From Zingiber officinale (lineage: Eukaryota > Streptophyta > Magnoliopsida > Zingiberales > Zingiberaceae), in assembly GCF_018446385.1 (NCBI RefSeq), contig NW_024589898.1, forward strand, positions 496,001-560,000: 64,000 nt of DNA, in the 5' to 3' direction. Both the position numbers and the translations under genes were made by a program. Positions 14,772 through 56,844 of this stretch are shown here, one piece after another. Numbering within the stretch: position 1 is the stretch's first letter; each line of letters begins with the position of its first letter. A model generated the notes under the pieces. That model had not been told where the DNA came from and ran no database searches. It was given only the letters and a program-made list of their open reading frames with translations.

Positions 14772-15234
14772 CACTACAACAAAAACCTTCTTAGACATCA
14801 GTGGAACAACAACGGTTTTAAGCAAAAACCGATGTCTTTGAGTATTTTACACTGGTTTTTCCAAAAACCGGTGTCTATGAGCGCAGATTTTCGCTCATAG
14901 ACATCGATTTTTTAGGCGATGTCTATGAGCATCCGTTTTTTCGTTAATAGACACCGATTTTAACATCGGTTTTTAAAATCTGATGTCTATGATAATTTTC
15001 CCACCAATACTTAGCTAAAATTTCAACTCTTCCCTCTAACCTAACCCTATATGATGCCGTCCACGGGAGGCAGAGAGAGAGAGCTGTCTTCGGGCGACTC
15101 ACCTTCTCCGCCTCTATCTTCTCCTCCCCTCCCATCGCCGACCCAATCTCGACCTCCTTTATTCTCCCAATTCGAAGCAGAGAGAAACAGAGATCGGAGA
15201 TCTGTGCTTCTGATTCACCGCTCGATCCGCCAAG

Positions 15235-17214
15235 ATGTAGATAGGTTCCGAGAAGGCGTCGTCCCTTGATCTCTTGTCGGTCGTCGTCGCCTCCCTCTCC
15301 AACGGATATGGGCTCGATTCCAGCACCGGGGATGCGTTCGTGGAGAACCGGCTGCTGATCGCCGTCCTGAGCATAGTCATCGTCGTGCTTGTCGGTTGCG
15401 TGGCAATCTTCTTCGTCCGGCGATCGAGCGGAAGGAAGCCCGCCGAGCCGCCGAAGCCGCTAGTGGTGAAGACCCAGATGGATACAGAGGAGGACCAAGG
15501 GAAGAAGAAGGTCACCGTCTTCTTCGGGACGCAGACCAGGACGGCTGAGGGGTTCGCGAAGGTTAGGGTTTTTATCCGAGTAGTTCATTTTTTGAATTTT
15601 TCTCCCATGATCTTAGATTTTCCCCCCTTCTAGGCGCTGGCTGAGGAGGCAAAAGCACGGTTCCCTAATGCCATATTTAAAGTCATGGATATCGTAAGAT
15701 TATCTTCCTTTTGTTTAAGATCATTGGAAATACTACTGATTAATTGACTGATCTGTAGTTAGTTTCCTCAATTATAGGACGAATATGCTACTGAGGATGA
15801 TGAGTACGAGGAGAACCTGAAAAAGGAGATCTTGGCTTTGTTCTTCTTGGCTACGTAAGTTGAAAGCCAGGAATTTTTTGTTTGTATAAACAATCAGCTT
15901 CCTCAAAGTTCGAGCTGATCCCTTTGTTTTCTTTAGGTATGGAGATGGTGAGCCTACTGATAATGCTGCCCGGTTCTACAAATGGTTTACAGAGGTTCTG
16001 GAAGCATGAACATTTAGTTAATCTATTCTACCAATAATCCTTTTGCCTTGATCGATTGCTGATTATTAGTTTTTTATAGGGGAAAGAGAGAGGAATCTGG
16101 TTGGAAAATCTTCAATTTGGTGTGTTTGGTTTGGGCAATCGGCAATATGAACATTTTAATAAGGTTTGGCATGATGAAATTGTCAGTATTCTTTTTGTGG
16201 GAATTGCTTGGCTGATATATTTGTGTATTGTGTCCTTGCAAAGGTTGCTGTGGTGGTCGATGAACTGCTTCATGAGCAAGGTATATACTCGATTTATTTA
16301 GTTTGTGATTTGACTAAGTCACATATGCTCCTTAAGCTGATTTTAAATCCTATCTTCAGTTGCAATCTCAAAGTTCATGCATTTCATTTTCCTAGAGAAT
16401 TTAACTTGTTTTGTAGACTAATTGTTACTCTGAAAACTTGTAAAGTCAACATGGTCTGAGGAGTTACTAAGAAACAGTTGAGTAGTCATGTTATCTGTGA
16501 GTTTCATAAATACAACTGTAATGTAGTAATCATGTGCAAGTTTGTAGATGTGTTTAATGAATTTAAGCATCATTCTTACTTGCATATTCTTCTATCTTTT
16601 TTTCCTCTGCATAGGCGCCAAGCACATTGTCCAAGTGGGGTTGGGAGATGATGATCAGTGTACTGAGGATGACTTCTCTGCATGGTATGTAGTATCGGCA
16701 AACTTTTATGCATGCCATCCAAATTCCAATGTCGGCTACAGTTATTTTTCAGTTTTCTGTTCTTTTTTCTCTTTTGCCCATCACTATCTCATTACTCCTT
16801 TGTGGAATATGAAATATCAACTGTACTTTCAGGAGGGAGCTTCTTTGGCCGGAGTTGGATAAGTTGCTTCAGGATGAAAATGAGACAGGTGCATCTACTC
16901 CTTATACAGCTGCCATTCCTGAATACCGGGTTGTATTTGTCAAGCCTGAAGAAGTTCCATATCTGGACAAAAGTTTGAGTTTTGCAAATGGCCATGCTAT
17001 TCATGACATACAACATCCATGCAGGTAGAGATGCTCTTTACAAAGACAATTTAAAAACAGTACTGGTTAGGATTTTCCAGTCCATGAAAAGCATATCTAA
17101 CACAACTTTTGTATCTTCAAGGGCTAATGTGGCTGTGAGACGAGAGCTTCATACTTCAGCTTCGGACCGGTCCTGCATCCATTTGGAGTTTGACATAGAT
17201 GGCACTGGCCTTAC
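15235..17214 (+). pseudogene. Captured 5' part of NADPH-cytochrome P450 reductase
   Basis: Nine exons can be read: 15235-15561, 15634-15693, 15778-15854, 15937-15994, 16080-16163, 16244-16280, 16615-16684, 16833-17024 and 17122-17214. All have GT/AG borders and the frame holds across the joins. They encode the N-terminal membrane anchor (LLIAVLSIVIVVLVGCVAIF), the FMN-binding motif [46 protein letters not shown] and the linker up to DIDGTGLTY. The FAD- and NADPH-binding domains are absent. The full protein, known from the family, supplies electrons to ER P450s. Codon 2 after the expected ATG is TAG, so the native start is dead; a GTQTG glycine is Arg. About 200 bp of 5' UTR-like sequence was captured too. 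Confidence 0.93.
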
Positions 17215-18464
17215 GTATGTGTATAAATTATATCATTCTGAAATCATGATTTCTTATTTATCTTTACAATGACAATCATTTTAAATTTCTTCTAGCAATG
17301 CTCCCCCATCAATGAATTTGGTTTTGAGTAAATAATAAAATATATTATGGAAGGAAATCTGTAATGCATGCAAAATGTGTTGAGGCCACTAATGTGCAAA
17401 TGCTAGCTAATTCTAAAGTTCAATCACATAATTCTGAATCTGATACATGTCATTATTAAAGAACAGCTGTTAGCCTAATCAAAGGCCATATATCTGATAC
17501 TATTGTAATTATAAATTTTAGAATGATGTTCTTGATTTTGCATACAACACTTCTACCAGACATCTAAACTCTGTTGGTCCCGGGGCTCGATAGTAGTGAA
17601 ACTTATCCTTCCTGAACTTTACTTATTGCATGGAACTTTTTTTTTAAATTTGTGAACCGCTTGTTGAATTACCATGGGACAGCCTTCCACGAGTAATAAT
17701 TTTGTGGACACATCTACCCTCTTGACACTCATTTAATCACAAATACTTATGTTTTCTTTAAGGAAATTTTGCATGGATAGTCTAGCAACCAGTCATGTTG
17801 AGTGAAATTCAGATTCTTTTTTTTTCATTGTTTATTACACATAATATTAAGCCCATTTTAGTGATTGTGTGGTTACGTCCTCTCATTTTATTTTCATCTT
17901 CACATTCATACTGCTTAAGATTAAGTTTTTCAATTTGTATGTTAATCATTATGGATCATTGTGATATTCTAAAAGTTGATATGTTCTGCATTCTTGCACT
18001 GGATTGCTTTTCCTTTTTTGCTCGCCTCTTGTTAACAAGTAGCCAAATTTTTGTGTCGTTTAGCATCTCATTAGTTTTTTTCCAAGTCTCAGGCAGCAGA
18101 GGAAGTTGATTTTTTTGGCAATGGGATTATAGATAAATTTACAAACAAAATTCTTTAATGGTATTAGATAAATTTACTGTGGTTGATATAGTAGGAATTC
18201 ACACAAAGTAATTAGCATACAAGCATCCTAATTGTAGTTGCTAAATGCAAATACCCTACTATGTTTAGCTAGTTCATTTAACTGTATTTATCTTAGTTTG
18301 TTTAGGTCAGTTTAATGGGGTGTTCATGGGGTAGTGAATTTTTTTTAATATATTTGTGTTCTAGCAGTGATGAGATAATTATTTGCTTGCCATGAAATTT
18401 ATCTTTGCTTGGCTGATTTATTTCAGTTTTAAATAACTATAGTTTTTACATGATTCTTGCTTTG

Positions 18465-18501
<37 letters not shown>

Positions 18502-19385
18502 GTTTTTAGATTTCCTTTTTGGATGATGATGCAGTTCTCCAATTTGCTGTTATTTTTTGTTCATTTCAGTATTTACCTAGTTGCATCACTCTTAACCATG
18601 TTTCTTTATAGCCCAGTTGTGCATGCAGTAGTGATTAGCATATCATGTCACATGGGAGATATACCTCATGTTATGATATTTTCTGTTGTCAAACTTTTTG
18701 TGAATGATTGGTATAGTGCATGATGATTTAAACTAGTCTTTTTTGACTTCAGAAGAACATGCTGAATTTTCCATGTATGCTGGCCTTTAATATAGAGGGC
18801 TACAAGAGGATTATATCTTAGGTCAAGACACTCCAAATTCATCATAAACCAAAGGGAAAATAGTTTCTACTTACTAGAGGATTGAATGGACCCAAAAGGA
18901 AGCTCTAACTTGCTGTTTTGGGTGTTGAACTAAAGCACAGCATTCTCATTGCTTCTTCTGGTTGGTAGCAGAAATCACAGAAAATAGGGGGCTTAGTGCA
19001 GGATATTCAGGATACCAAGATGGCATCAGAGGTAGTACAATAAATAGTATATCTCTTCATCAGAGGTAGATTTGTTCTTCTATGCTTCCTTCACTGGATT
19101 TGTTGTGTAGTCATATTTCTTTGTTCAACCATTATCATGCCTAGTAAGTTGTTGTATGATGCTGTCGGTTCTTATCAATCTGTACACTTGAATTAGAAGG
19201 AGCAAATTATCTATGTTATATTCTAAGCAGCATATACTAAGTGTCATATATGAAAGTTTTAGATTCTATGTTATATTCGTTATCTTCCACAGCATCCTTT
19301 AAAAACTCAGTATTCTATTTTATTTGATACATGTACACATTTGTTTTAGTTATTTGACATATGGTGGATTTATGTGTTTTTACAG
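17215..19385. other. CACTA-1 interior after the reductase exons
   Basis: No later reductase exon is seen. AT-rich, intron-like DNA with an (AT)n microsatellite at 18468-18499. A candidate exon at 18972-19031 (after GTAGCAG, before GTAGTA) encodes a 20-residue stretch ending QDIQDTKMASE; its source is unknown. It may join the shared terminal exon. Confidence 0.45.
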
Positions 19386-19466
19386 TTTACAAATCTCAAG
19401 TACTCCAGAGTTGAAATTGATGAAGTGCGGTTCGAGTGGGCTGAATGCATGCTAGATTACATTTGA
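19386..19466 (+). other. Shared terminal exon, copy in CACTA-1
   Basis: After the acceptor TTTTTACAG comes a frame of 26 codons containing VEIDEVRFEWAECMLDYI and a TGA stop. Nearly the same exon occurs in CACTA-2 (22736-22816) and a diverged one in CACTA-3 (50753-50839). It does not belong to P450 reductase. See findings. Confidence 0.7.
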
Positions 19467-20038
19467 AGTGCAGTTCTACCTTGATGTGTTAAAAGAATGT
19501 TCTACCTTGATTTTGATATCTATTAGCTAGCTTTTGATGTAAAAAGAATGTTTGAGTATTTTATGGATATTGTTGTAAGAAGATTATTTATATAATTTGT
19601 GAATATTTGTGTATTTTATGGATATTATTGAATGAAGAATATTTGTACAATTTGTGAATATTTGTGTATTTTTTTTTGTTATTGTCGGTTTTAAAATCAA
19701 ATCTGCGCTGTTAAAAAATATACATATTACATCGGTTTTCCACCGATGTAAAACCGGTGTTATAAAGTAATATTACATCGGTCATTTACCACTGCCAAAA
19801 CTGGTGTTATTAACATACAATATTACATCGATTTTACACCGTTGATTCAACGGTGTCGTTAAGTGATACTACACCGGTTAATAACCGATTTGAAGACCGG
19901 TGTCGTTAAGTGATACTACACCAGTTTTAACCCGATGTCTAAAGTGGCAGACTTTTAACATCGGCTTCATAGACATCGGTCGAAAATCAAATAGACACCG
20001 GTGGAAAACCGATGTCTATGAAGGTTTTTGTTGTAGTG

Positions 20039-22687
20039 TTTTCTTGCGATCCCTTATAACTTTGATCCCAAGAATGTGTGCACATTCTCCTAAATCCTTC
20101 ATATCAAATTATTTGGATAACCATACCCTTACGTCTGATAATACCTTGACATTGTTGCTAATTAACAAAATATCATCTACGTATAGTACAAGAAATATCA
20201 CCACGTTTTCGTTACACTTCTTGTATACATAAGACTCATCTGGACACTGAATAAATCCATAAGACTGGATTACTTCGTTAAACCAGATGTTCCAAGATCT
20301 TGAAGCTTGCTTCAGTCCATAAATGGACCGATTGAGCTTGCACACTAGATGCTCTTTGCCCTTTCCAATAAACCCTTCTGGTTGCTTCATATGGATGTTT
20401 TCTTCAAGACTTCCGTTAAGGAAAGCTGTCTTGACATCCATTTGCCAAATCTCATAATCCATATGAGCGGCAATGGATAAGAGTATCCGGATAGACTTAA
20501 GCATAGCTACCGGCGAAAAAGTCTCCTCATAATCGATTCCCTCTTTCTGAGTGTACCCTTTCGCAACAAGCCTTGCTTTGAAGGTTTCTACCTTCCCATC
20601 TGTCCCTCTTTTCCTTTTGTAGATCCACTTGCATCCAACGGCTTTTACACCATCAGGTGGTTCTACAAGCTCCCAGACCTTATTAGAATACATAGATTCT
20701 ATTTCGGAATTCATTGCCTTTTGCCAAGATACTACATCTATATCTTGGAGTGCTTCATCATATGTCCGGGGATCAGGTTCATGTTTATCCAGGATCAAGT
20801 CCGAAGACTCATCAAAAACATGAATCTCTCAGGCTGCCTTACAACCCTCCCACTACGACGAGGCACCGTCTGTGGTTATGTATCATGTGTGACACATGTT
20901 GCAGTCTCTTGTGGTACTTCATCTTGTACTATTGGTACTGAAGTAGACGTGTCTTCTCTAAGTTCTTCTAGAATAATTTTGCTACTGGGCTTGTGATCTA
21001 TTATATAGTCTTCTTCTAAAAACTGGGCATTGGTGCTAACAATGACCTTCTGGTCTTTAGGACTATAAAATAAACCACCTTTTATTCCTCTGGGATAACC
21101 CATAAACACATGAACTTCTGTATGAGATTCTAACTTATCAGCATCTGGTTTCAGCACATATACTGGACTACCCCAAATCCGAATGTGTTTTAGACTGGGC
21201 TTCCGCCCATTCCATAATTCTATGGGAGTAGAAGATACTGATTTAGAAGGTACTAAGTTCAGAATGTGCGATGTTGTTTCCAGAGCATATCCTCAAAACG
21301 AATTTGGTAATTCTGAATAACTCATCATCGATCTAACCATCTCCATAAGAGTTCTATTCCTTCGTTCTGCCACACCATTCTGTTGGGGTGTACCAGGTGC
21401 GGACAATTGGGATTGAATCCCGGCCTCTGATAAGTAATTCCTAAACTCTCCTAAGAGGTATTCGCTACCACGATCAGACCGTAGTGTCTTGATACTTTTA
21501 CCTAGATGTTTCTCCACATCAACCTTGTACTCTTTGAACTTATCAAAGCACTCAGACTTGCGGCGCATCAGGTAAATGTATTCATATCTTGAATAATCGT
21601 CTATAAAAGAGACAAAATATTCAAAACCACCTCTAGCCTGGATAGACATAGGACCACACAAATCAGAATGAACCGGTTCTAACGCTTCTTTGGCTCTATA
21701 CCCCTTGGCCTTAAAAGGTCTCTTGGTCATTTTACCTTCCAAGCAGGATTCACATGTTGGAAAGTTTTCCAACTCTAATGGACCCAAGAGTCCATCGGCT
21801 ATAAGTCTTTGAATCCTACTTAAGTTAATATGACCAAGCCTTAGATGCCAAAGATGCGTTTGGTTCATTTCCGAAGGTTCTTTTATCTTATTAGAGTTAG
21901 AAAATGTGTTATTAATTTCCATATTTTTCTTTGTGGGAGAAATTAGGTTTAAAGTATATAAATTGTCAATCAATGCACCAGAACAGATAATCACTTTATT
22001 TCTCTTTATAACCACATTGTTACTAAAGGAAACTGAATATCCATCCAAATATAGTTTAGAAATTGAAATTAAATTCTTTCTAAAACTGGGTACATAAAGA
22101 TAATTTCTTAAAACCAATTTCCTATTCCAATCAAATGATAAGTAGACGTCTCCCACTGCAACAGCCGCTATCTTAGTAGCATTGCCCATGTAGACAGTTA
22201 TCTCTCCATCAAATAGTCGTCGGGTTTCTTGGAACCCCTGCAAAGAATTGCAGACATGATCAGTGGCTCCCGTATCTACACACCAGGTGCTGGTAGATAA
22301 CACCGCTAAATATGTTTCAACTACTAGAGCATGAGATATACCTTTATTGTTCTGATTCCTACGAGGATAGTCTGCCTTCCAATGCCCTGTCTGCTTGTAG
22401 ATGAAGCACTTGCCCTTTGGCTTCTTCATTCCAGCTTTTTTTCCCTAAGGTTTATTCACTCTCTTTGCTGAAAGGACCTATTTCTTCTTCTTCTTGCCTT
22501 TCGGCTTAGAAGTAGAACCATTTTCAGCATAGTGAATCTGAGAACTTTGACGAAATATACCTTCTGCTGTCTGTAGTTCTGTCAGAAGTTCCGCCAACGT
22601 ATACTCTATTTTGTTCATGTTATAGTTCAGGCGGAACTGCTCAAAACTTCTTGGTAGCGTTTGGAGAATTATATCGACCTGGGTTTC
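20039..22687 (-). pseudogene. Copia gag C-terminus, protease, integrase and reverse transcriptase
   Basis: Read on the minus strand in order: gag end (LPRSFEQFRLNYNMN), zinc knuckle (CFIYKQTGHWKADYP, two of the metal-binding Cys changed to Tyr), protease (WCVDTGATDH), GAG-pre-integrase (HLWHLRLGHIN), integrase with its catalytic acids in HSDLCGP, TLRSDRGSEY and NGVAERRNR, and reverse transcriptase with LYVDDILLIS intact. Stops lie near 21290, 20880 and 22445 among others. The family makes a polyprotein that copies and inserts the element; this copy cannot. Confidence 0.92.
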
Positions 22688-22735
22688 TAATACATGCATC
22701 ATCCAAAGTTTTCAAAAATCAAATACCTTTCCTAC

Positions 22736-22816
22736 TCAAATGTAATCTAGCATGCATTCAGCCCACTCGAACCGCACTTCATCAATTTCAACTCTGAAGT
22801 ACTTGAGATTTGTAAA
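22736..22816 (-). other. Shared terminal exon, copy in CACTA-2
   Basis: On the minus strand, encodes VEIDEVRFEWAECMLDYI and a TGA. It differs from the CACTA-1 copy at only a few bases. The acceptor reads TTTTTACG instead of TTTTTACAG, so splicing into it may be lost. Confidence 0.7.
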
Positions 22817-22937
22817 TCGTAAAAACACATAAAAACATATATTGCAGTACTTTCATTTTGTGAATTTTTAAAAAAATAAAAGAGACATCATTGAGGAAAA
22901 TAAAAAAGTAAAAGGTGTTGATTACAAAGAAACTTAC

Positions 22938-24006
22938 TGAGACTTGTAAAATATCTTCACAAGCTAATGCAACATCCAATAGAAGAAGGCATACACGGAG
23001 AGTTATTTGCTGCATAGGAAAAATAGCAAGGCAGAATAAAAAGAATCATCTTATCAATAACTCATAAGATGATTAAATTAAGGCATACCTCTCTTCAATT
23101 GTCTCGATATTCTAGAATAGCTTTTTGAGAACAGATAATGACTATGCATACTCATGGATATGGTAGAGAATGATTGCCTGTGAAGAACCAAATTAACAAA
23201 AATACTAAGAAGAGAGCAATTTATTAACTCATTCACTAATTATGGAAAGAAAACTTTTGACAAAATGCGTTGAACTACATACAATATTCAGCATTGTTAC
23301 TGAAACATCAAACTCTTGGGCATGGACAACTCTACTGCTATTTATAGCAGCACTTTGATGCATTGAAGCACTATTAGCTTTAGACCCTGAAACCATATAG
23401 CCTAGGCAGCTATTCTCATAGTCAATCTGGTCCACAAAAGTATGCGCAAGCTCTTCACTCTGCTCCTATAATCAATATAGTTATAAATCAAAGAGTGCAC
23501 GTAAAATATCTTTTCAGTTGTAAGAACAATGCTAGTTTAAGAAATCATGGAATATTGACTGAATGGATAAACATGGATTAAATTATTTCCAACTTTGAAA
23601 AAAGGATAGAGAAAATGGTGAAATTACATGAAATAGATAATAAAATATTAGCAATATTCAAAATACCATGATTTGGAGAAGACATGATTCCCAAGGAACA
23701 TCAAACTTTTCTGCTATAGAAGAATGGATGATTCTAAAGATCATGTTTAACCTTATCATACAAGTTAAGTATAATCATGTCATATAATATCATATGTTTA
23801 ATATGATTATAGCTTTATTGTTTAATAATTTGGTTCCTCAAGAATGTCAGTATGAAGATGAGAAATTATCTTCATAAATTAATTCAAAAAACCAATTACC
23901 TGTGATTCAGTCAACTTACTTTAACCTTGTTTAATGCATCAAGGAGATTCCTAGGATCAGTGCAACCATCTCAAAAGTATTCTACAACAGCAATGTTATG
24001 AAGAAC
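22938..24006 (-). pseudogene. Captured fragment of CCR4-NOT subunit 10 (CNOT10) gene
   Basis: Three minus-strand exons with GT/AG borders: 24006-23920 (VLHNIAVVEYF then stop, DGCTDPRNLLDALNKVK), 23465-23283 (EQSEELAHTFVDQ through EFDVSVTMLNI) and 23009-22938 (LRVCLLLLDVALACEDIL). These match segments of the plant CNOT10-like protein, a TPR-repeat subunit of the CCR4-NOT mRNA deadenylase complex, as I recall it. TGA replaces an expected Arg codon in the first exon. The rest of the gene is absent. Exon order is kept, and the strand is the same as the TTL fragment upstream. Confidence 0.82.
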
Positions 24007-24211
24007 CTGAAATAAATAGAAAATGATTAAGGTTCACACAAACAAGAACTACACATAGTAAATAAACTTCTCTTCTTTTGTATGCAAGTCAACAATAAAT
24101 CATCATGTACTTTAAAAATGAGTAAGATATTAGTTAAAGTAGAAATAATTAGAGGAAAAAATAGACATGTTTCATATAGCAGCCAATTAATACATTTTGA
24201 CATGGAGAAAC

Positions 24212-25379
24212 TGTTGGTGCGGTTAGCACTAACGATTTAACCCAGGTTTTGATGAATGACAAATCAGGTTAAGTTAGTCTGTTGTTGTCTGACACTTTGA
24301 TAAAGTGTGCAGGAGAAGTCCAGACAGGTCGACGGGCCGACCAGATGTCTGGCACGAAGTCCAGCTAGGTCGACGGGCTGACCGGATAGCTGGCGAGAAG
24401 TCCAAGCGGGTCGACGGGCTGACCGGACGCTTAGTGAGAAGTCCAGCTAGGTCGACGGGCTGACCGGATAGCTGGCGAGAAGCCCAGGCGGGTCGACGGG
24501 CTGACCGGACGCTTGGCAAGAAGTCCAGACGGGTCGACGGGCTGACCGGACGTCTGGCAGGTAAGTGAGGTAAGTCACTGGAGGGGAGTGACTGCGAGGA
24601 CGCGTTCCCGGGAAGGGAACATTAGGCGTCGATCCGGCTTAGATCCATTTCGGATATCTAAGTCGAGATCGTGACTAGATTCCGGTCTCGGAAAGACGGA
24701 ATCTAAGTCATACTCTTGTTGTTAATTTTTATTACTTAGCGTATCTATAAAAATGTGCTTACAATCTGTGCTGCAGGGTTTTTATTTGCCTCGGACTAAC
24801 ACTGTTTTGCAGGTAGGAAACAGTGAGGGTCCGGGCGCCCGGGATGGTTCTGGGCGCCCGGAAGTCCGGGCGCCTGGAAGGTATCCAGGCGCCCGGAGGC
24901 AAGTTTTATCCCCAGGACGACGTTGACACTTGGAGCATGCTGGTTGGGAGTGTTACGTCACATTCCAGGCGCCCGGAAGGGATCCAGGCGCCCGGAGCAG
25001 CATATAAAAGAAGCCCCAGGCAGGAGCTTCAAGATATCTGTGTTCTGAGAACTCTGAGTTCAATCACTCTGCTACTCTGCGCTCCAACGACGTTCACAAA
25101 GCTCCGACGACTCACTCCGGTTTTCTTTTAATTCATTATTTGTCGGTATAGCTTTGTTTTTCTTTCATTAGCAATATTTGTACGTAAATTGTAATTATCC
25201 GAATTGCTAGTGAATTGCCCAACGAAAGTACTCAAGGAGTACGGGCCTTCGAGTAGACTTCGAACGAAGTAAAAATCAACCGTGTTCATCTCTTTACTTC
25301 CTTACTTTTCCGCTGCGTTTTAACTCGAGATTTTCGAATCGATATTCACCCCCCCTCTATCGAATCTAACGGTCTTACA
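24212..25379 (+). repeat. 5' LTR of the gag-only element
   Basis: Begins TGTTGGTGCGGTTAGCAC and ends AATCTAACGGTCTTACA. U3 (24317-24560) has six imperfect copies of a roughly 40 bp unit built on GGTCGACGGGCTGACCGG. Around 24830-24995 lies a cluster of GGCGCCCGG palindromes just before a TATA-like CATATAAAAG (25003-25012). Confidence 0.93.
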
Positions 25380-25381
25380 AG

Positions 25382-25393
25382 TGGTATCAGAGC
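25382..25393 (+). promoter_or_regulatory. Primer binding site (initiator Met tRNA)
   Basis: TGGTATCAGAGC lies two bases inside the 5' LTR and is complementary to the 3' end of plant initiator Met tRNA. Confidence 0.93.
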
Positions 25394-25605
25394 GAGGTTC
25401 CGCTCTGATTTGGTGCAACCACCAAACAGATAGGGGGTGAATTTTTTTTTAAAAACTGATATTATTATCTTTTTGGAAGATTTTTTTTGCATTTAAAATC
25501 TAAATTGGTGCAACACCAACTTAGAGTTTCTGTTTCTCCCGCACTGCTAATCCAAGACGAAGTCTTGGGATATTTTTCCAGTTAATTTCGTGTGTGTAGG
25601 TTATA

Positions 25606-27279
25606 ATGTCTCAACAAGAAGGCTTCAGCACAGTACGTCCTCCTCTATTCAACGGGGATGACTTTTCGTACTGGAAGAGGAGAATGGAGGTCTACATGAA
25701 GACAGACTACGACCAATGGATGAGCGTCACAAGGGCTTACAAAATTCCAGTAGACAACTCCGGGAACATACTAGACCCTGAAGACTGGACAAATGATGTG
25801 AAGAAAAAGGCATCAATTGAAAACAAAGCCATCAATACTCTACACTGCGGACTAACACGAGAAGAACTGAACCGGGTCGGACCGCATCAAAACGCTAAGG
25901 AGCTTTGGGATAAACTGATCGAGCTGCACGAAGGAACAAGCGATGCGAAGGTAACAAAGAGAGATTTGCTGTTAAATAGAATTTTTAATATAAAAATGCA
26001 GGAAGGAGAAACGGCAAGTCACCTCCACGCGAGGGTCAAAGATATCCTCAACGGTCTCCACACGATAGGCCACCAAATGGAGAACCGAGACTTAATCAGG
26101 TACGCGTTAAATGCTTTTCCGCGAAACAATTTGTGGGCATCAATCGTAGATGCCTACAAAATTTCAAAAAATTTATCTAAATTAAAATTGGACGAACTCT
26201 TTTGTGAATTAGAACTTCATGAGCAAACTAACGCCGGGGTCGAGAAAGGTGTAGCTTTATTTGCAGGTTCCTCTAAAGAAAAGAAGAACAAGCCCGAATC
26301 CGAAGAAGATTCCGATCAAGACTCTGAAGACGAAGAACACCTGGTGAACCTGGTAAGGAAAATGTTCACCAGGAAAAAGAGAAGCTTCAGCAAACAGGAT
26401 CTTCAGAAGATCAGTTCGCCAGCCGACTCAAGAAATGTCACATGTTTCGGATGTAACAAAAAGGGGCACTATAAGAACGAATGCCCAAGATTGAAACTTG
26501 ACAAACCAAAGTCAACAAAGAAGAAAGCCCTCAAAGCAACATGGGACGATTCCTCCTCAAACGAATCGGAAGGAGAAAAGCACCAAAGTCACCTCGCGCT
26601 GATGGCTCGCGAAGCTGAAACGGAAGACGAATCAGAGGAATCGGAAGACGGGTCCGAACCCGAATCGAGCCACGAGTCCGTACTCGTTTCCGAAGGTTCC
26701 AAAGAGGTATACCTAAACTTAAATCGTAAATTCTTTAGAATTATCTCGTGTTTAAATAAAAAATTAGTTAAATTGGAAAATAAAAATAAATCGCTTCTTG
26801 AGGAAAATCAAAACCTCAAGGAACAATTAAAAAATTCGAATCCAACTCAAGATCGAACACTTGAGGAGGAGAATTTATCATTAAAAAATGAACTTAATAA
26901 GTTAAAGGAAATGTTGGAAAAATTCACAACAAGATCTAAAAATTTAGATTTAATTCTAAATAACCAAAAGGCATGCTATAATAAAACCGGACTTGGATAT
27001 AAGTCAAACTCAAACAAAACCTTTAAATCATTATTAACCCAACACAAAGCAACTAAACAAGCTTGGGTCCCGAAAGCGTGCTTAACCACGCAAGTAGGAC
27101 TTAATCAATTCTATATACCTAAAGATAAAATACATTATATAAACTTGAAAAAATCAGATCAAAAACTAAAATATAAATCTAAATTAAAATCAAAATTCAA
27201 AACTCAACAAAATTTAGATTATCACCAAGTTGATTATAACTATAAAAAGAATCGATACAAGCCTAAAATTAAAACTTAA
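25606..27279 (+). CDS. Gag polyprotein of the gag-only SIRE-like element
   Basis: An uninterrupted frame of 557 codons. Residues about 10-220 are a copia gag (UBN2-type) domain (PPLFNGDDFSYWKRRMEVYM near the start). An intact CCHC zinc knuckle, CFGCNKKGHYKNEC, spans residues 280-293 and would bind nucleic acid. A Ser/Glu/Asp-rich stretch follows (about 315-360), then a coiled coil (about 370-450) and a Lys-rich tail. In complete SIRE elements the AWVPK motif near residue 490 leads towards the protease, but here the frame runs on in Lys/Asn-rich sequence and stops. The product should form virus-like particles. No stop or frameshift is seen, unlike almost every other element ORF in the window, so it may still be expressed. 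Confidence 0.9.
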   Translation: MSQQEGFSTVRPPLFNGDDFSYWKRRMEVYMKTDYDQWMSVTRAYKIPVDNSGNILDPEDWTNDVKKKASIENKAINTLHCGLTREELNRVGPHQNAKELWDKLIELHEGTSDAKVTKRDLLLNRIFNIKMQEGETASHLHARVKDILNGLHTIGHQMENRDLIRYALNAFPRNNLWASIVDAYKISKNLSKLKLDELFCELELHEQTNAGVEKGVALFAGSSKEKKNKPESEEDSDQDSEDEEHLVNLVRKMFTRKKRSFSKQDLQKISSPADSRNVTCFGCNKKGHYKNECPRLKLDKPKSTKKKALKATWDDSSSNESEGEKHQSHLALMAREAETEDESEESEDGSEPESSHESVLVSEGSKEVYLNLNRKFFRIISCLNKKLVKLENKNKSLLEENQNLKEQLKNSNPTQDRTLEEENLSLKNELNKLKEMLEKFTTRSKNLDLILNNQKACYNKTGLGYKSNSNKTFKSLLTQHKATKQAWVPKACLTTQVGLNQFYIPKDKIHYINLKKSDQKLKYKSKLKSKFKTQQNLDYHQVDYNYKKNRYKPKIKT

Positions 27280-27802
27280 ATTAATGGCCAATAATTCAGG
27301 GGGAGGCTCCAGAATAGCTGGCACCTCCAAAACTAACTTACCCGACAGGGTAACCCAAAACTAACAAACCCGGCAGGGCAATTAGAATTAGAGACCAAGT
27401 TTAACTTAAATCATGGTATTGGTGAAATTTTTGGATGATAGTACGTTAGGGAAACTTGGGCATCGCATGTCTAGAAAGATATGGTTTCGATCTGGTGCAT
27501 TTGGCCAAGTGGAACTGACCGAAGCTACCCTTAAACGAATCCTAACCAGTTAGACCAAGATTTAGTACTAAGTTTCGTGGATAGGACTATTCGGAAAACC
27601 TCGAAAGGTTGGTTACTTCTAATGATGTCATTGTGACTCACCAAGCTTAGAAGTTTATCCGAAGAATGCCTATTTGTGGAAACCAAAGCTAAGTCTGAAT
27701 CTAACACAAGTTAAAATAAAAGTCTGTAATCAAACCAATTTCATCTCACAAAATCATAGGATTCCCTGATTGATAATATAGTTCGGGTGAGATGAATAAG
27801 GC
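27280..27802 (+). other. Non-coding interior of the gag-only element
   Basis: Follows the gag stop. It has related GACAGGGTAACCCAAAACTAA and CGGCAGGGCAATTAG-like segments but no protease, integrase or reverse transcriptase motif in any frame. Confidence 0.55.
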
Positions 27803-28790
27803 TTTAAAAATTAATTTCAAAATTTTAATTTTAACTTAAAAATTAATTTTAATTTTAACTTAAAAATTAATTTCAAAATTTTAATTTTAATTTAAAAATT
27901 AATTTCAAAATTTTAATTTTAACAAAAAAATTAATTTCAAAATTTTAATTTTAATTTAAAAATTAATTTCAAAATTTTAATTTTAACTTAAAAATTAATT
28001 TCAAAATTTTAATTTTAATTTAAAAATTTAATTTCAAAATTTTAATTTTAAAAATTAATTTCAAAATTTTAATTTTAACATAAAAATTAAATTTCAAAAT
28101 TTTAATTTTAACTTAAAAATTAATTTTAAAATTTTAATTTTAACTTAAAAATTAATTTCAAAATTTTAATTTTAATTTAAAAATTAATTTCAAAATTTTA
28201 ATTTTAATTTAAAAATTAATTTCAAAATTTTAACTTAAAAATTAATTTCAAAATTTTAATTTTAACTTAAAAATTAATTTCAAAATTTTAATTTTAATTT
28301 AAAAATTAATTTCAAAATTTTAATTTTAACTTAAAAATTAATTTCAAAATTTTAACTTAAAAATTAATTTCAAAATTTTAATTTTAACTTAAAATTAAAA
28401 TTAAAATTTTAATTGTAACTTAAAAATTAATTTCAAAATTTTAATTTTAACTTAAAAATTAATTTCAAAATTTTAATTTTAACTTAAAAATTAACTTCAA
28501 AATTTTAATTTTAACTTAAAAATTAATTTCAAAATTTTAATTTTAACTTAAAAATTAATTTCAAAATTTTAATTTTAACTTAAAAATTAATTTCAAAATT
28601 TGTAATTTTAATTTAAAATTAATTTCAAAATTTTTAGTTTTAACTTTAAAAATTAATTTCAAAATTTTTAACTTTAAAAATTAATTTCAAAATTTTAATT
28701 TTAACTTAAAAATTAATTTCAAAATTTATAATTTTAATTTAAAAATTAATTTCAAAATTTTAATTTTAAACTTAATTTCAAAATTTTATT
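27803..28790. repeat. AT-rich minisatellite, about 32 bp unit
   Basis: About thirty copies built from AAAAATTAATTTC, AAAATTTTAATTTTAA and CTT. Copies vary in length through loss of the last part. The unit is almost self-complementary. It sits where pol would be in an autonomous relative. Confidence 0.93.
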
Positions 28791-29662
28791 CAAACTTAAA
28801 ACTTAAAACTTAAACTTCAAACCTAATTAAAAAAAAAAAAAACTAACTAAAGCGTTTTTTTAAATTTCTTTTGAAAATTCTACTCCAATTACTTTGAAAA
28901 TCTTATATTAAAAATTCTTAGCAAATATTTTCAAAAGCTTTATCTTAGATATCAGGTTCAGGGGGAGAAATTAATTAAAAGTTTGGAAGTTTAAAAATCC
29001 CACCTAATTTTTAAAATTGATTTTCAATTAAAAATTATTACATTTAAATTTAGTCAGTTTTGTAACATATGCTTGAAAATTAAACTTTCCAAACTTAGCA
29101 AATTTATTTTGACTAAAATTTTACTTGCTTTTGAAAAATTAAAAATGTTGCTTTGTTTTGAAAATATCAAAATTGAAAACTAAATTCAACTTAGTGTTTG
29201 AAAATTAGAATTTACCTTTTGAAAAGTAAATGTTACTTAAAATCTAATTTGAAAAACCTGATTTGAAAATTTTTACACTTTTGAAATGTTAAACTTGATT
29301 AACTTTAAACTTATACTTTTCAAAATTCAACTTGACTCCCCCAAGGCAACTTGCCTATCTTTTAATTTGGGCTTAAAGATTACACTTTTATCAGTATCTT
29401 TGAATTTTGAATCAAACGTAGAGATTTTCCAAAATAAGATGTTTCTTAAATTAATAACTTTCTACAGTAACTCCACACTATGCTTGTTTACTCTTGCTTA
29501 TTTTTTTTTGATGAATGCCAAAGGGGGAGAGTTAGGTGGTTAAGTTAGCTAAACCAGAATTGAAAATACAAACTAACTTAAAAACCCTTTAAATGCTTGT
29601 TTTTTCTTGCATATGTTTTCACTAACTTAACCAGGTTGTCATTCCATCAAAAAAGGGGAGAT
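28791..29662 (+). other. 3' untranslated part of the gag-only element with polypurine tract
   Basis: AT-rich, without a domain-bearing frame. ATGAATGCCAAAGGGGGAGA at 29512-29531 is a stretch I recall before the 3' LTR of SIRE-type elements. The polypurine tract is at 29649-29661. Confidence 0.55.
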
Positions 29663-42110: not shown

Positions 42111-42112
42111 GT

Positions 42113-42124
42113 TGGTATCAGAGC
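42113..42124 (+). promoter_or_regulatory. Primer binding site of the Tekay-like element
   Basis: TGGTATCAGAGC, two bases after the LTR end; initiator Met tRNA type. Confidence 0.9.
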
Positions 42125-43065: not shown

Positions 43066-43075
43066 TAGGGAGAAT

Positions 43076-46830: not shown

Positions 46831-46849
46831 CACTACAACAAAAGTGACT

Positions 46850-48588: not shown

Positions 48589-50752
48589 TGTTGGTTGCTA
48601 CTCGAAATATCGTCCTAATTTCCCTGTACAAAAATTTGTACAAGCATAGAACTATCCTAGCTACCCATGTGTTCTGCTAAAGTTAAATTTGGATTGTAAA
48701 CAATGTTTAGCATTATTAATCCAAATTTTCCCTTTAGAAGTTAAACTTGAATTGGGAACGAAATTTAACATTCTTACTTCAAGTTCAACCGATGTGATTT
48801 TCCTAAGTTAAACCATATTACAGAAGTTGATCAAATATCTATTTCAAGGATCGGCTTCCAGGTCAAACGTGGTGAGGCACTAGGCCTTCTTGGGTATGAG
48901 ATCATCCACCACTGCCTAGATAAAGTCTTTCAAAGAAATCGGATATTTAAACTTCTCACAGTAAACAAGGTTTAACAATAGAGACCTCAATAGAAACACA
49001 TTATCGAAACATGAAATCAAAACGAAAATCGATAACCTCTTGTGTTTGGTTTTTCAAGATCTATACAAAAGATGAACTAGTTATGATGCAGAAACTAATA
49101 ACTAGTTATACCTCTTGTAACTTATAGATCTCTTGATCTTCTATTGTATTCCTCTTCTTATCTCGGACGTCGTGTGGGCGACGATCTACCAAGACGAGAA
49201 TCCACCCAAGCCTTCTTCTTCCTTTCAAGTTTCGGCCTCCAACCACTACAAGAAAAAAGACATACAACAACGGTTTTTCACCGTTGTCGTAGGCCATTTT
49301 TAACTGTTGTTAAAGGCTGTGTTGTTAAAAGGGGTGGCAAACGACAACAGTTTTTAACCGTTGTCTGTGAAGGCAAAGACAACATTTTAACAACGGTGAA
49401 AAACTGTTGTCTTTTCCTACAAAGACAACAGTTTTTCACCGTTGTCTTTGAGCATATGCCTAGGCTCTTCAACAACAGTTTTGAACTGTCTACGACAGCA
49501 GCTAAAAAGCGTTGTCTTTTTAGCCAATGACATCGGTTTGACAACGGTTAAAAATCGTTGTCTTTTTAGGCAACGATGTTAAATAACATCAGTTTGTCAC
49601 TATTGTCTTTTAACGCCATTGACAACAGTTTGACATATTTAAACTGATGTCTTTGGGTACAATATACAACATTTTGACAATAAATAAAAAACTTATTAAT
49701 CTTTTCCTACTCAATGGTTTATAAAAAACATCCAGTGCAAATTTCATTGATAAAAAACCTACATAATCAATATTTACAATGCAAATTTCATTAAAGTACC
49801 AAACATCATCATCCAAACATCATTAAAGTACCAAACATCAACATTCAAACATCACAAAAGTTTACACAGCCAAAAGTTTATATATATCACACATATAGTC
49901 CAAAATATCATGTTTTGTTGGAGCACGTCTTCTTTACCTTTGCATCTTCTAAACAGCCTGTGCATCTTCTAAACTGCAGCCTTTTCTGGTTTCTCCTCCC
50001 TCCTAGCTTCTCTTTTCTTCTTCTTTCATAGAAACGGGTCATTATCTTTTCCCTGAGGTAAATAGCATATGATTGCAAGTTAATTCATTTCCCAGGAGTA
50101 AATGGCATAAAAAATGGATCTCTTGGAAATTTCACACCTGACCTTATTACAGTTTTACAAAAACTCAGAGTAGTATGTCTTAAAAGACCAGCTATATGGC
50201 TTTACAAGTAACTCTTAAGTATGGTAAACTAAACCTATCAACTTTACATATATCAAAAAAAATTCTATCCAATTTGAAGTCTAGCGAAACTCCATCTACT
50301 ATGGGGTCAACTGCTTTGTTAGCGAGATAATCCGCCAGCAACTAAAAATTGAAATTTTTGGAGACATCTACATTATAAAATTGGGTTCAACTACTATGGG
50401 TTCAACTGCTTATACTTGCTGCAGTAACAAGATTATTACCCTTCTAAACAAAGACATCTACATTATAAAATTGAGAACCCCAGAAAGTTTGTTATGTAAA
50501 CCAAAATACAGTATAAATATTTGACAAAAGATTAAGGTTAATCATTTTTTATATTTGACAAAGGATTAAGTTATTGGTTTGTATTTGATGTTGGTGCATC
50601 AAGTGTGCAGTTTAGTCATGCCGATTGGATTTGGTAAATGGACTTAGAGACAGATATCTCCAAATCAAGTGCAATCAAGTATAAGCAGCATGTATTCAAT
50701 TTAACTGAATATTATTATTGTCAAATGCAATAAGATGAACTCATGTATATAC

Positions 50753-50839
50753 CTATTCATAGATATGATCTTGTATGCATTCGGCTATCTCAGAGCGCAC
50801 TTCATCAATTTCTTCTTGAGAGTACTCCGCTTTTGTGAA
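50753..50839 (-). other. Shared terminal exon, diverged copy in CACTA-3
   Basis: Minus strand, after the acceptor GTTCACAG: a frame with [20 protein letters not shown] and a TAG. It is clearly related to the exons at 19386 and 22736. Not part of a carboxypeptidase. Confidence 0.65.
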
Positions 50840-52053
50840 CTGTGAACACACATAAATTATATGATCTTAAAGAACAAAATATAATTAATTGGAAAAAAAT
50901 AATAACTAAATAACAATTCATGAAGTGATACCAAAGATCATTTTGAGAAATTCGTCCTAGTTGATCTACTAAGATTACCCCAAAGAAGTCATCTGATATG
51001 ATTCCCATGCTGTGAGCATAAGGTATTTTAGAATTGGTATCGACTTTTCCACCCGTGGATGGATTGCCAATCAAGTAACCCATGCCCATCAATTCAAGCA
51101 ATTTACCTGGAGGTTAAGTAATGGTTCTTTCCCTTCATCAATACCTGAATTACAGTAAATGAAAATGGCATGTAAATTAACACCCTCATCAATAGTTTAC
51201 ATTAAAAGTAGAGTTACCATCCAATATTCTTTTGGCCACCATAGGTACAATTTTTCCAGCATATGAATCCCCAGCAATGTAGAGGGGATTGGAGATGAAC
51301 TGTGGGTGCTCAACAAGCCACTGCAAAAGTGAAATATTACATCTTTAAGGCACTTACAGTAATTACATCAGGAATATATATGATCTTTCCCACCTGTAAA
51401 AGAAACTTAGAAGCCTATTCTGACCAAATAGTATCGTTGGCATCATACCCTTCATATTTTCTTGAGTATGAGAATCCAGAACCCAACGGGGAATCTACAA
51501 AGATAATGTTGGCTACCTGCACAAATGTTTTCACGCAGACAGAACAAAAGCATGTATCATATTGCTTCCTCAATTACTGATCAAGAAGAAGAAATTACCT
51601 TGGTCCAGGAATAAGGATGGTAGACCAAGCTTGGCAAGCTCCCGTTGTACTCGGCTGTCACAAATTTCAGGGGCCTGCGAATGGATTTCTACTATGAAAC
51701 GAGAGTAGCTAATCATAGCAAACATGGAAATTTCACCCACCGATTTCGAAGACTAATCCACTGAAGGCAGAGCACCTGGGCCCGCCGGTCACAATGGCGG
51801 AGCCAGGAATTTAATTCAACCCGGGCTAGAAAATTTTAATCAAAAATAACAATAAGAGTTGAAGCCTTTAACATTTGAGACACCTAGCAGAATGACCTCT
51901 AATAATTCTCTAATACTCTTGACATAAACAAACTTGGAGTTTCTGTTAATATATAGAGAAACCTATACACGAGAAGCATAGAGAAACCTATAGTTAAATT
52001 CTCAAAAGCACTTTTAAAACGTTGCAGTAGAAATCATATTTCATTTTCCTCAC

Positions 52054-52583
52054 CTCCATAAAAGGCAATTGACTCAGCATTTTCACGAACTCTCATGAGT
52101 CCATATTGGAAATCTGCTTCTTTCTTCTCTTGTATGAAATTCAAAGTGACTATGCCCTAAGTAGAAATGGCAGTGTGTGTTAGGAGAACATAGTGTATAC
52201 AATAAAAGTGCAAAGTGTCAAAGCAAACATAGGAAGCAACCGAGAAAATTTAATTACCTTACCAAGAACACTTAAAAGTTGTACTGCCAAGAGAGTAAAC
52301 AATAAGTACACCAAATAATGGTGGATAAATTCCATATAGAATGTTGTTGAATGATATGAGGTCAATGGTTGCATTGAACGGAGTCAAAGAAAATGAAAGA
52401 GCAGTCCCAGTAAAAGAACTTAGATCAGCTACAATCTGTTGGTTTGAATTATAAATAATTGATTGAGATTGGATCTTGTAGAATGTTTGGTTATTAAAAT
52501 AGTGTTGCATGTAATAACTTGTCATCCAAGATCTCCATCTCAAAGAAAGGATTTCTCTCGCATACTCTCTTACAACAAAAAAA
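52054..52583 (-). pseudogene. Captured exons of an ABCD2-type (chloroplast) ABC transporter gene
   Basis: Two minus-strand exons with GT/AG borders: 52583-52258 (VVREYAREILSLRWRSWMTS, FYKIQSQSII, DLSSFTGTALSFSL, ILYGIYPPLFGVLIVYSLG) and 52156-52054 (NFIQEKKEADFQYGLMRVRE, then NAESIAFYGGE). These correspond to the transmembrane domain of plant peroxisomal-type ABC half-transporters of subfamily D, member 2, as I recall it. A frameshift lies near the end of the first exon (about 52270). The ATP-binding domain is absent. Confidence 0.88.
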
Positions 52584-53571
52584 CTACAACATACCAAAGA
52601 AATGCATAAAAAATACTCATAATCAAGAGTATGGAACATGATTTTACATTAGCAACATAGAAAAATTATACAAATTTACTTGAATGCATAGTAAGATAGT
52701 TTGAGAAGTCTTACTCATGCAAAGAGAACATCTTAAATAACTAAAGTTGATAATGAGTGAGTGAATTATCTTGAAACCAGAAACTTACACAAGCATCATC
52801 AAATATTTATGATGATCTTACTACAAAATTCATACTAGGCATTAGGGAAAAAATTAATAAATTCATCTTAATTTAAAAATTACATTAATCATGATATCAT
52901 GGCAAAATCTTATTTGCAGCTAAGAGTCACAAATTATGCATTTCCTGGATAGTGAAGTCCTCAATATAATACTTCTCAATGAGAATACAAATCTTATCAA
53001 TGTCGAACCTTTTAAAATTATCTTTTAGATCCAAAGTAGAACTAAGTATAAAAAGTTCTACTATCTTATTACTGAATCTAGAGTTTAACTCTATCAACTG
53101 AAAATCTATTACAACATTAAATCTAAATTTCTGCTACACATTAATTGCATATGTGTTGCTGCTTTCTCCAAACCAATGCATTTAATTTAATAAGTTTGAC
53201 AATATTCTTATTAAGTGGTATCATGAAGACTTGCAAATCCTCCTGAATTACAAGTGATATGTTTCCCTCTTAATTGTTTGCTTTTATCTTGTTGTGGCTC
53301 AAAAGTTAAATTGATTTATTGTGACATTTAGGCATTCAGCATGTAGGCCATTAAGTTGATCAAAAACTTACGGACTAAAATTTCTTCAATTCAATTTATT
53401 GTATAGAAAAGGCTAATGAGAACCTAAACAATATCTAGACGATATAACTTGCAGATATATGTAGAAAGCCAAGCTATTTATTTTGTTGATAAAATAGACA
53501 GTAGGGCACCCGATGTAAATATAATAAACAGATCAAAGAACAAAAAGAGCTACCTTGAAAATGTCAAACCA

Positions 53572-53760
53572 AAATGTGTGCTTAACTGGATACAATATCC
53601 TAAGTCCAGAAAGGAGGGCACTCTGTAGAACAACAACCCTTAACTTCTGAAGATCGGAAGCCAAATCAAGAGTTGGACCGTAAGCCGTTGCCCTAGCTCG
53701 GAGAATTAATCTGGTGAAGTCGATCCGCAGGAGGACTGGAGGAGGACGAGGAAAAAGAGA
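53572..53760 (-). pseudogene. Possible further captured exon in the hAT-like element
   Basis: Minus strand: an open stretch (LDLASDLQKLRVVVLQSALL, then LRILYPVKHTFWFDIFK) ends at a GT donor (CAAGGTAGC). It could be a 5' exon of the same ABC transporter or of another gene. I do not recognise it. Confidence 0.35.
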
Positions 53761-54394
53761 TCTTCCGAAGGCTGCGACTAGAGGTGGGTAGCTCCAAAAC
53801 TTGATGTTCGGCGTTCAAGCCCTGTCAGGGATGATAGATATGGGAGATTTAGGGATAGCTCTTTCAGTCCCCGGGCTAAGTATTAAAAAATAATGGACCC
53901 TGGGCTACGATTTAAAAGAGCTAATAAAGTTTTGACCAAATGGACCCCGGGCTACAGCCCTGATAAGGTTGAATGTGGCTCCGCCCTCCCCCGGTCAGCC
54001 AGAGGAGCAGGGGGTCCTCTGCCGGATTGTTCTCCGACTCGATGAAGTAGTAGAAAAACTCACCGTCGTGGTCCTGGTCTACCTCCACGTACCTGCACCA
54101 ACGAGAGCAGAGGTTCATGGGGGTCAGAGCAAAGTTAAGGTTGGGGGAAACAACATCCGGACCCTGTCTCTAAGTAGAAGGGAAGGGGGCCTTGGAATCC
54201 AGGTAAATAGGTGACCACAGAAGATGAGAGAGCAGAGGAAAAGAAGCAGAGAAAGATCAGTGAGACAATCAGGAGAGGGATTTCCATCTTCCTCCTCCTC
54301 CTTCCTTCTTCTTCCTTCTTGTGTTGGAACTGGCTGAAAGTCGAGGCGACGAGGAGGCGGTGAAGATGGCTGAAAGTAGAGGCCGTGAGGAGGA

Positions 54395-54570
54395 GGTGGC
54401 GAGGCCGAAAGTTGAGGCGACGAAGAGGGCGGTGAGGAAGGAGGCGGCGAAGAGGGCGGTGAGGAGGGAGGCGGCGAAGAGGGCGGTGAGGAGGGAGGCG
54501 GCGAGGGAGGCGGCGAAGAGGGTGGTGAGGAGGGAGGCGACGAAGAGGGTGTTGAGGAGGAGGCGGCGAA
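54395..54570. repeat. GC-rich minisatellite, unit near GAGGCGGCGAAGAGGGCGGT
   Basis: Tandem units of 21-24 bp just upstream (on the minus strand) of the captured carboxypeptidase start. Frames through it give Pro/Ser or Arg/Ala repeats on both strands and are not genes. Confidence 0.85.
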
Positions 54571-56844
54571 GAGTAGGGTTTTGGGAAAAAGACAGAAAAA
54601 AACAAAGCGTAAAACAGACAAATGACGAAGGAGAAAAAGTGGCGAAAGAAAAACAATCGCATTCAACAACACTTAATAGACAACGGTTTTTAAAAACTGT
54701 TATCGTAATCCCAAAAAAGCGCACATAGACAACAGTTTTAAAAAACTGTTGTCGTTCACTTTAAAAACCGTTGTCGTATCCTCAAAAAAACATAAATTGA
54801 CAACGGTTTTTAAAAACCGTTGTCATAGGCCAAAAAAATTACTAAAAGACAACAGTTTTTGTTAAAACTGTTGTTAAAAGGCAAAAAGACAACGGTTTGG
54901 TATAAAACCGTTGTCGTTTGAGTGTTGTTGAATGACGTTTTTCTTGTAGTGAACTTTCTCCAAGAGATGATGAAATTCGGCCACCAACTTTCCTCCAAGG
55001 GATGCTAGACAAGAGAACCTCCTTCTCTTCTTCTTCTCCTTCAAGCAACCGGCCATCAATGGATCTCCACACCAATATGCTGCCGGACACCAAGAGGGAA
55101 AACAAAGGAGAAGAGAGAAAGAGTAAGGGACGACCACCACTAAGGAAGAGAGGAGAGGAATAGAAGATGTATTGTTGTGAGGTGAGACACCTCTACCCTC
55201 TCTTTTATATTCCTTGGTCTTGGTAAATAAGAAAAGTTTTAAACATAATTAAAACTTCCTTATATTCATTGCCAATGACAAAAAATTAAAACTTCCTTTT
55301 CTTCTCGTCATGTCCGGCTACATGCTTGTTCTCCAAGCAAGGAAAGATTTTAAACAAAAATTAAGATATCTCTTTTAAAAATCCCTTTTGTGAATAGTTC
55401 TAAAAGGAATATTTTATAAATTAAAATCTCTCTCTTTTAGATATCTATAAAAGATAAGTTTTAAAATAAAACATGGTTTCAAGAAAGGAAAGTTTTATCA
55501 AAAAATTAAAATCTTTCTTTCACATTATAGATAACTATAAATAAGGAAAGATTTCAAATCTCTCTTTTATTCCTTTGTAGAAAGCTATAAAAGGAAAGAT
55601 TTTAAAATTTTAAAACTCTCTTTTAAAACTAACATAAAAGGAAAGTTTTCAACAAAATAAAAACTTCCTTTTATTTCCTTTTATGACCAATCTAAAAAAA
55701 GAAAGTTTTATATTAAAATTATTCTTTTAAATTCTTTTAATGGATTTCTATAAAAGGAAAGATTTTACAAAATAAAACTTCCTTTTGAATTCAATGTGGT
55801 TGACCACCCTTGCTTGGGCTCCAAGCTAGGGCCGGCCACAACTTGAACCCATCTAACCTTGGTTTGGCCAGCCCTAGCTTGGGCTTCAAGCTTGGCTTGG
55901 CCGGCCACCTTAAGGTGGGTAAGAAGTTGGGTTTGGGTGGATATAAGACTTTATAAATAAGAGGCTACAATAGAGACCGAGAGGAGGAATTGGTTTTGGT
56001 CTCCCGATGAGTTTGAGCTTCCCGTGTTCGCCCCGAACACCCAACTCAAGTTCATCAATAATATCTCATTCCACTAAAGAGTTATTATTGAACTACCGCA
56101 CCAATCCCATATTACTATATGAGCTCCTTCTTATCATGAGTGTGTTAGTCTCCTTGTGCTTAAGATATTAAATGTCCACTAATTAAATGAGTTACTGATA
56201 ACTTAGTTAATTAATATCTAGCTCCAAGAGTAGTACCACTCAACCTTATCATCATGTCGGACTAAGTCCACCTGCAGGGTTTACATGAAAATCCTTATGA
56301 GCTCCTCAAGGGGACATCATCAACCTAGATTACTAGGACACAGTTTCATTCTATAATCAACAACACACCATATAAATAATATCATTTCCCAACTTGTCGG
56401 GCCTATTGATTTAACGAGCTAAATCACACCCTTTGATAAATCAAAGAAATAAATACTAAGTATATGTGCTTATTATTTAAGAGTACACACTTCCATAATA
56501 ACAGAGGTATTATTCTTTTATATAGTCAGTATAAAAAGATACTACCTCAATTGGTCATGCTCAATACACTCACAGTGTACTAGTGTAATTTATTAGTGAA
56601 GATAAACTAATACCTAATTACACTACAACCACTCCAATGGTTTGTCCCATTCCATCTTGGTTGTGAGAAACTGTTTATAATTTATAATGATATGATAGCA
56701 TGATCTTCTGTGTGTCTCCTCACACCATGTTATCTACAATATAAATTAAATGGACAACTACACTTAGCATAAATGTAGGCATTTGATCAATGTGATTCTT
56801 ATATATTTATACAAAAAACTAGACTTTTAGTATACACTCTAACA

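Follow-up and report, generated by a model that had tools for sequence, protein, structure and literature searches.

The window analyzed here, a stretch of 64,000 nucleotides from ginger (Zingiber officinale; contig NW_024589898.1, positions 496,001 to 560,000), includes three transposable elements of the CACTA type, CACTA-1, CACTA-2 and CACTA-3, in which exons of captured host genes are followed by a related short exon, below called the terminal exon. The initial annotation, made from the letters of the sequence, had described the three as elements of one design lying in three places, with the terminal exon, read as EIDEVR...AEC and a stop, acting as a reusable exon trap. The positions it gave for the three exons were correct (Table 1).

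CACTA-1 and CACTA-2 share a block of 98 bp with 97% identity, formed by 17 bp of intron end and the 81-bp exon, and the blocks of CACTA-1 and CACTA-3 are 75% identical over 95 bp. The exon peptides of CACTA-1 and CACTA-3 showed 61.5% identity over 26 amino acids (tblastn E 3e-7 within the window), while the best chance matches reached E 3.8 with the CACTA-1 query and 0.30 with the CACTA-3 query, and chance likeness of the exons was thus ruled out. Comparisons of CACTA-1 with both CACTA-2 and CACTA-3 found similarity in the end sequences and the exon block only. Between CACTA-2 and CACTA-3 there was an additional weak match of 51 bp (E 0.003), joining the intron next to the CACTA-3 exon with the retrotransposon nested in CACTA-2. 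A Pfam scan of the bare exons found nothing, the peptides of 26–28 amino acids being too short.

As had been noted before, the captured exons are in sense orientation towards the terminal exon and start near the 5' end of the element in all three cases. The start codons lie 463, 455 and 664 bp within the 5' ends of CACTA-1, CACTA-2 and CACTA-3, respectively. Also the earlier naming of the captured genes was borne out by matches to the PDB for the P450 reductase, TTL and the serine carboxypeptidase-like gene. The remaining CACTA-2 exons, putatively of CNOT10, had no PDB match on search. The best match of the P450 reductase piece in CACTA-1 (7sux, E 7e-135) extended up to residue 339 of 706; the splice sites of the piece comprise nine donors (GT) with eight acceptors (AG), and its frame is open save for a stop immediately following the start codon. 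The joined TTL pieces of CACTA-2, corresponding to the N-terminus of the OHCU-decarboxylase (transthyretin-like), matched 2q37 with E 4.5e-12. In CACTA-3 a transposable element with GGCGGAGCC-type ends, at about 51794–53993, was seen by eye to split a captured carboxypeptidase exon, and the leader of the same element includes a short tandem repeat of the GGCGGCGAAGAGGGCGGTGAGGAG type (54389–54574).

The common design of the elements was confirmed, with some corrections. Both ends of CACTA-1 and of CACTA-3 carry the CACTA terminal inverted repeats, and the two elements are flanked by 3-bp target site duplications (TTT and AAC, respectively), whereas no such 3' end was found in CACTA-2, which offers just TCT/TCC as a duplication. 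The 5' end of CACTA-2, at 32989, is good and shows 88% identity to that of CACTA-1 over 224 bp. Its 3' terminus is gone, the boundary at 22687 being deduced from the coding frame of the host retroelement, which, as read, resumes there about 47 bp past the terminal exon. These 47 bp had no clear match to the sequence after the CACTA-1 exon, and the boundary lies within about 1 base of the expected insertion point (TCT vs TCC). Viewed over 22687–22736, the 3' terminus appears to have been lost almost precisely at the point of insertion. The elements are putatively non-autonomous, the open reading frame (ORF) lists of their gene strand having been checked by eye for a transposase gene. Also the three places need a correction: CACTA-1 and CACTA-2 are not in wholly separate places because one long terminal repeat (LTR) element, with 96.0% identity between its LTRs over 2438 bp, houses both. 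CACTA-3 sits in a related LTR fragment (84%, 853 bp).

The layout had been regarded as capable of splicing, and this would apply to CACTA-1 and CACTA-3, in which the acceptor is intact and reads ACAG, but not to CACTA-2, in which it reads ACGA, with GA for AG. Stops in all three frames are present in all three copies, as by a rough estimate they would be in about half of random exons of equal length. In CACTA-3 the last captured exon reads into the terminal exon in frame one, the EIDEVR...AEC frame, whereas at the predicted junction of CACTA-1 exon 9 of the reductase enters the terminal exon off that frame (...LQISSTPELKLMKCGSSGLNAC and a stop). The CACTA-1 exon is followed by the motifs TTGTAA and AATGAA, which are common in AT-rich DNA. 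Between CACTA-1 and CACTA-2 there were 26 differences over the 224 bp of common 5' end and one over the 81 bp of the exon (Fisher p 0.003 for this single pair), a contrast that suggests slower change of the exon or recent exchange in the one pair available. The intact acceptors of CACTA-1 and CACTA-3, the low divergence of the exon and the sense orientation of the captured exons in all three elements speak against the exon being a passive residue, kept as a neighbour of the 3' sequences needed for transposition and rarely or never spliced, with the known fusions as products of gene prediction. The acceptor not being maintained in CACTA-2 agrees with that explanation, which on balance is rather unlikely but keeps some weight.

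The protein search with the exon peptide gave 143 matches with E ≤ 10 among 213 candidates, and 120 of them were listed. All but one of these 120 were annotated ginger proteins, and all 119 end in the frame-one peptide or a variant of it. A further search gave 23 ginger proteins with E ≤ 1 among 24 candidates; the second-frame peptide (LQISSTPELKLMKCGSSGLNAC or a variant) was at or near the end in all 23, and 20 of them stop precisely with it. The annotation of ginger thus includes at least 142 distinct chimeric gene models, 119 in frame one and 23 in the second frame. P0144 carries the very junction foretold for CACTA-1 by splice phase alone (GTGLT-LQISS), with 85% identity over 352 amino acids, and P0152 starts with the 47-amino-acid TTL piece of CACTA-2 (81% identity). 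The chimeras (P0001–P0120 less P0082, and P0138–P0160) bear names of ordinary or hypothetical proteins, and several of them join at least two host genes.

By the residues preceding the junction, the upstream parts of the 119 listed proteins were divided into 57 classes, and by BLAST into 15 components (89, 7, 4, 3, 3, 2, 2, 2 and seven singles). About 48 Pfam families other than those of transposable elements were present in them, with at least one family in 94 proteins and two or more in 33; this tally used precomputed matches, with the accessions typed by hand and merged by judgement per host protein, and PF27087 of P0113 excluded. No constant first exon was detected, the commonest start of 12 residues occurring just five times in the 142 proteins. 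According to a hand count, the 119 proteins are distributed on large contigs of 22 distinct lengths, fitting all 22 pseudochromosomes, and on two small scaffolds. The gene models were taken to be those of the assembly in PMC8342452, in which the pseudochromosomes cover the same range of lengths, 88.69–194.39 Mb (papers are cited by PMC number, and statements drawn from them refer to the parts of each that were available). The CACTA-3-type tail was not found in other ginger chimeras in the search that gave the 23 second-frame proteins, a negative that is unreliable because P0082, which shares that tail, was likewise not returned.

Tails identical, letter for letter, with that of the CACTA-1 exon were present in 70 of the 119 frame-one proteins listed. 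Such constancy would be expected if the tail peptide itself were selected as a C-terminal tag acting on the fused proteins, but the second frame, annotated in 23 proteins, is similarly constant, so that selection of a tag is unneeded and the youth of the DNA suffices. This explanation is accordingly very improbable.

The single match outside ginger among those listed, P0082 from Henckelia pumila, connects the exon with a transposon peptidase. P0082 has matches above the cut-off to Transpos_assoc (E 2e-20) and Peptidase_C48 (E 1e-8) and one below it to Transposase_24 (25.3 vs 28.7 bits), and its C-terminal tail shares 24 of 28 residues with the CACTA-3 exon. When its C48 part was used as the query, 18 proteins were found including P0082 itself, the named relatives coming from Henckelia, Primulina, Phlomoides, Perilla and Salvia. 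The tail motif IDE(V/M)R was present in 12 of the 18, in ten of these no more than 20 residues from the end of the full tail; in P0133 it lies 49 residues before the end, and P0124 is cut within the tail. P0127 and P0129 have Transposase_24 together with the C48 domain, and in P0127 the Pfam C48 match (665–795 of 796) spans the tail. Two Henckelia relatives without the motif, P0128 and P0135, include LMKC/NAYK strings, apparently the tail in another frame, as in some ginger chimeras. P0134, from Salvia, is a fusion of B3 DNA-binding domains with this Ulp1 peptidase and its tail.

The exon peptide aligns solely to the tail beyond QCGYY, of which QCG presumably holds the catalytic Gln and Cys. 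The exon is therefore no peptidase, the catalytic residues being absent from it. By homology it encodes the C-terminal end of the Ulp1/C48 peptidase of a CACTA-type transposon, and in the parent the tail was probably encoded by a last exon of its own. Membership of the exon in any captured gene is excluded, as the initial annotation had held, by the roughly 48 Pfam families that precede it and by its match to the tails of Ulp1 proteins. It could in principle be an exon of an ordinary host gene, captured a single time in an ancestor and then carried along: Ulp1 domains of MULE elements have been described as transduplicated host domains (PMC13317346), and P0134 with its B3 domains fits a transposon origin less neatly. 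The protein with the nearest tail, P0082, and the combinations in P0127 and P0129 nevertheless tie the peptidase to transposase domains, and a host origin of the exon is exceedingly improbable.

The three ginger elements are probably best read as Pack-CACTA-type elements that retain the Ulp1-type last exon of their parent behind captured 5' ends of host genes. The ancestors would have been autonomous CACTA elements with a second gene terminating in a Ulp1 (C48) peptidase domain. In the capture, for which aberrant excision of neighbouring elements is the presumed route, the interior of the element would be swapped for host DNA and both ends retained; the retained 3' end would bring the last exon of the second gene with its acceptor and stop, and the 5' exons of the host fragments would come to adjoin the 5' end of the element in sense orientation. 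If the kept end of one parent includes the last exon, later captures would inherit the acceptor, the stop and perhaps the poly(A) site. A transcript begun in the captured leader or in the 5' end of the element could then be spliced into the last exon of the element, would meet a stop whatever its frame and would probably take its 3' end from the poly(A) site of the element; transcription, splicing into the exon and 3'-end formation are all predicted here from the DNA. Of the proposal that the exon is a reusable trap rather than the result of chance, the constant exon behind many genes stands, but a special trapping module is needless, because descent with the element end would account for the reuse.

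Pack-CACTA capture has been described as the mobilization, as one element, of neighbouring insertions with complementary terminal deletions (PMC13317346, PMC8903248). CACTA-2 looks like the end-deleted copy required by this model; CACTA-1 and CACTA-2 are oppositely oriented, unlike the same orientation of the model. To judge by its sequence, CACTA-2 could not work as an exon trap in its present form.

Several observations weigh against the reading of the elements as Pack-CACTA types with a retained exon. Two of the three copies are damaged, CACTA-2 in its acceptor and 3' end and CACTA-1 by the stop after the start codon. The 57 junction classes do not equal 57 independent captures because one component holds 89 of the 119 proteins, and in the diploid assembly alleles may be counted double. 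The tail motif was lacking from six of the 18 Ulp1 relatives, and no ginger protein with both C48 and this tail was among the matches listed in three length-limited searches. The source tags of all 142 listed chimeras are confined to ncbi, uniref and nr, and some of their models (P0092, P0116) have apparent odd donors. Augustus produced the ginger models from masked sequence, guided by hints from transcripts and proteins, and those without a start or stop were discarded (PMC8342452). The predictor may thus pick the terminal exon since it supplies a stop, and the discarding of stop-less models leads to a bias towards stop-bearing exons and in the frame counts. The same features of the annotation, namely that every fusion known is a gene model, that the pipeline discards stop-less models and that some models have odd donors, are those expected if the exon is a passive residue.

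It is also conceivable, though clearly unlikely, that the terminal exon has been selected as a frame-blind 3' exon, gene-carrying copies thereby dodging the silencing of aberrant RNA and the chimeras spreading over all ginger chromosomes. If so, any captured 5' gene fragment would get clean splicing and termination.

With an element-borne last exon, each captured piece would have a defined splice partner and a stop, and, if it is used in RNA, the birth of chimeric genes would become repeatable. The 81-bp exon is furthermore a tag by which captures can be counted, and the presence of at least 142 chimeras in the public gene list of ginger concerns any user of the annotation.

Man-made gene-trap and poly(A)-trap vectors combine an acceptor, a stop and a 3' end. 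The ginger exon resembles them, although its supply of a 3' end is only probable; it is natural, however, and would serve exons captured inside the element instead of the gene at the insertion site. Pack-CACTA and other Pack-TYPE elements are alike in their CACTA ends, target site duplication, internal host pieces and several sources per element, whereas the available parts of PMC8903248 and PMC13317346 do not speak of any terminal coding exon that is constant and derived from the element. The Tpn1 family of Ipomoea nil consists of non-autonomous CACTA elements, likewise with a captured host interior and retained terminal regions, and it forms chimeric transcripts with the disrupted gene; its retained parts are terminal inverted repeats and subterminal repeats, and the accessible text does not mention a shared last exon (PMC5105172). 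Tgm-Express1 of soybean, likewise a CACTA with gene fragments, has its exons spliced into chimeric transcripts, demonstrated as RT-PCR cDNAs, but there the fragments are joined to exons of the host gene at the insertion site, and an exon of an element gene is not mentioned in the sections at hand (PMC1947982). The probable parent type is represented by ORF2 of CACTA elements in Chenopodium and other angiosperms, in which Transposase_24 is followed by Peptidase_C48 (PMC8978399); there the peptidase is within the element coding sequence, whereas in ginger the last exon alone stands behind foreign genes. A constant last exon derived from the peptidase gene of a CACTA itself was not met in the open-access literature searched, which was covered largely at the level of listings. 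Gene capture by CACTA elements and C48 in ORF2 are thus known; what is new, as far as the search went, is that a last exon of the element's peptidase gene recurs unchanged in kind behind the captures.

Table 1. Positions of the elements, terminal exons and captured gene pieces in the window (TSD, target site duplication).
Feature	Position	Strand	Remarks
CACTA-1, putatively non-autonomous CACTA	14772-20038	+	CACTACAACAAAAACCTTC at each end; TSD TTT/TTT
CACTA-1 5' end region	14772-15032	+	common to CACTA-2; weaker and in part in CACTA-3
NADPH-cytochrome P450 reductase 5' half, nine exons and introns, in CACTA-1	15223-17214	+	PDB 7sux
CACTA-1 terminal exon	19386-19466	+	FTNLKYSRVEIDEVRFEWAECMLDYI and stop; acceptor TTTTTACAG
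CACTA-2, without 3' terminus, LTR retrotransposon nested within	22689-32989	-	5' end resembles that of CACTA-1
CACTA-2 terminal exon	22736-22816	-	80/81 bases as in CACTA-1; acceptor destroyed
Exons ascribed to CNOT10 (assumed), in CACTA-2	22950-24020	-	ORF pieces; in-frame stop seen by eye
LTR retrotransposon nested in CACTA-2	24212-30839	+	LTR repeats; ends and TSD GAAAC by reading
TTL (OHCU decarboxylase domain) first coding exon, in CACTA-2	32394-32534	-	PDB 2q37
CACTA-3, both CACTA ends intact	49244-54951	-	TSD AAC/AAC
CACTA-3 terminal exon, in frame with last captured exon	50753-50839	-
139-nt GT-AG intron, last captured exon to terminal exon of CACTA-3	50840-50978	-
Serine carboxypeptidase-like 5' exons, in CACTA-3	50979-54287	-	best PDB match E 1.4e-29 (joined pieces)

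The retrotransposon nested in CACTA-2 includes a gag-like ORF and a long AT-rich tandem region near 27763–28800. CACTA-3 and its LTR fragment are enclosed by an apparent larger CACTA of another subfamily, which extends from 46831 to beyond 63900. The larger element carries a transposase-like gene from 57028, presumably TNP2.

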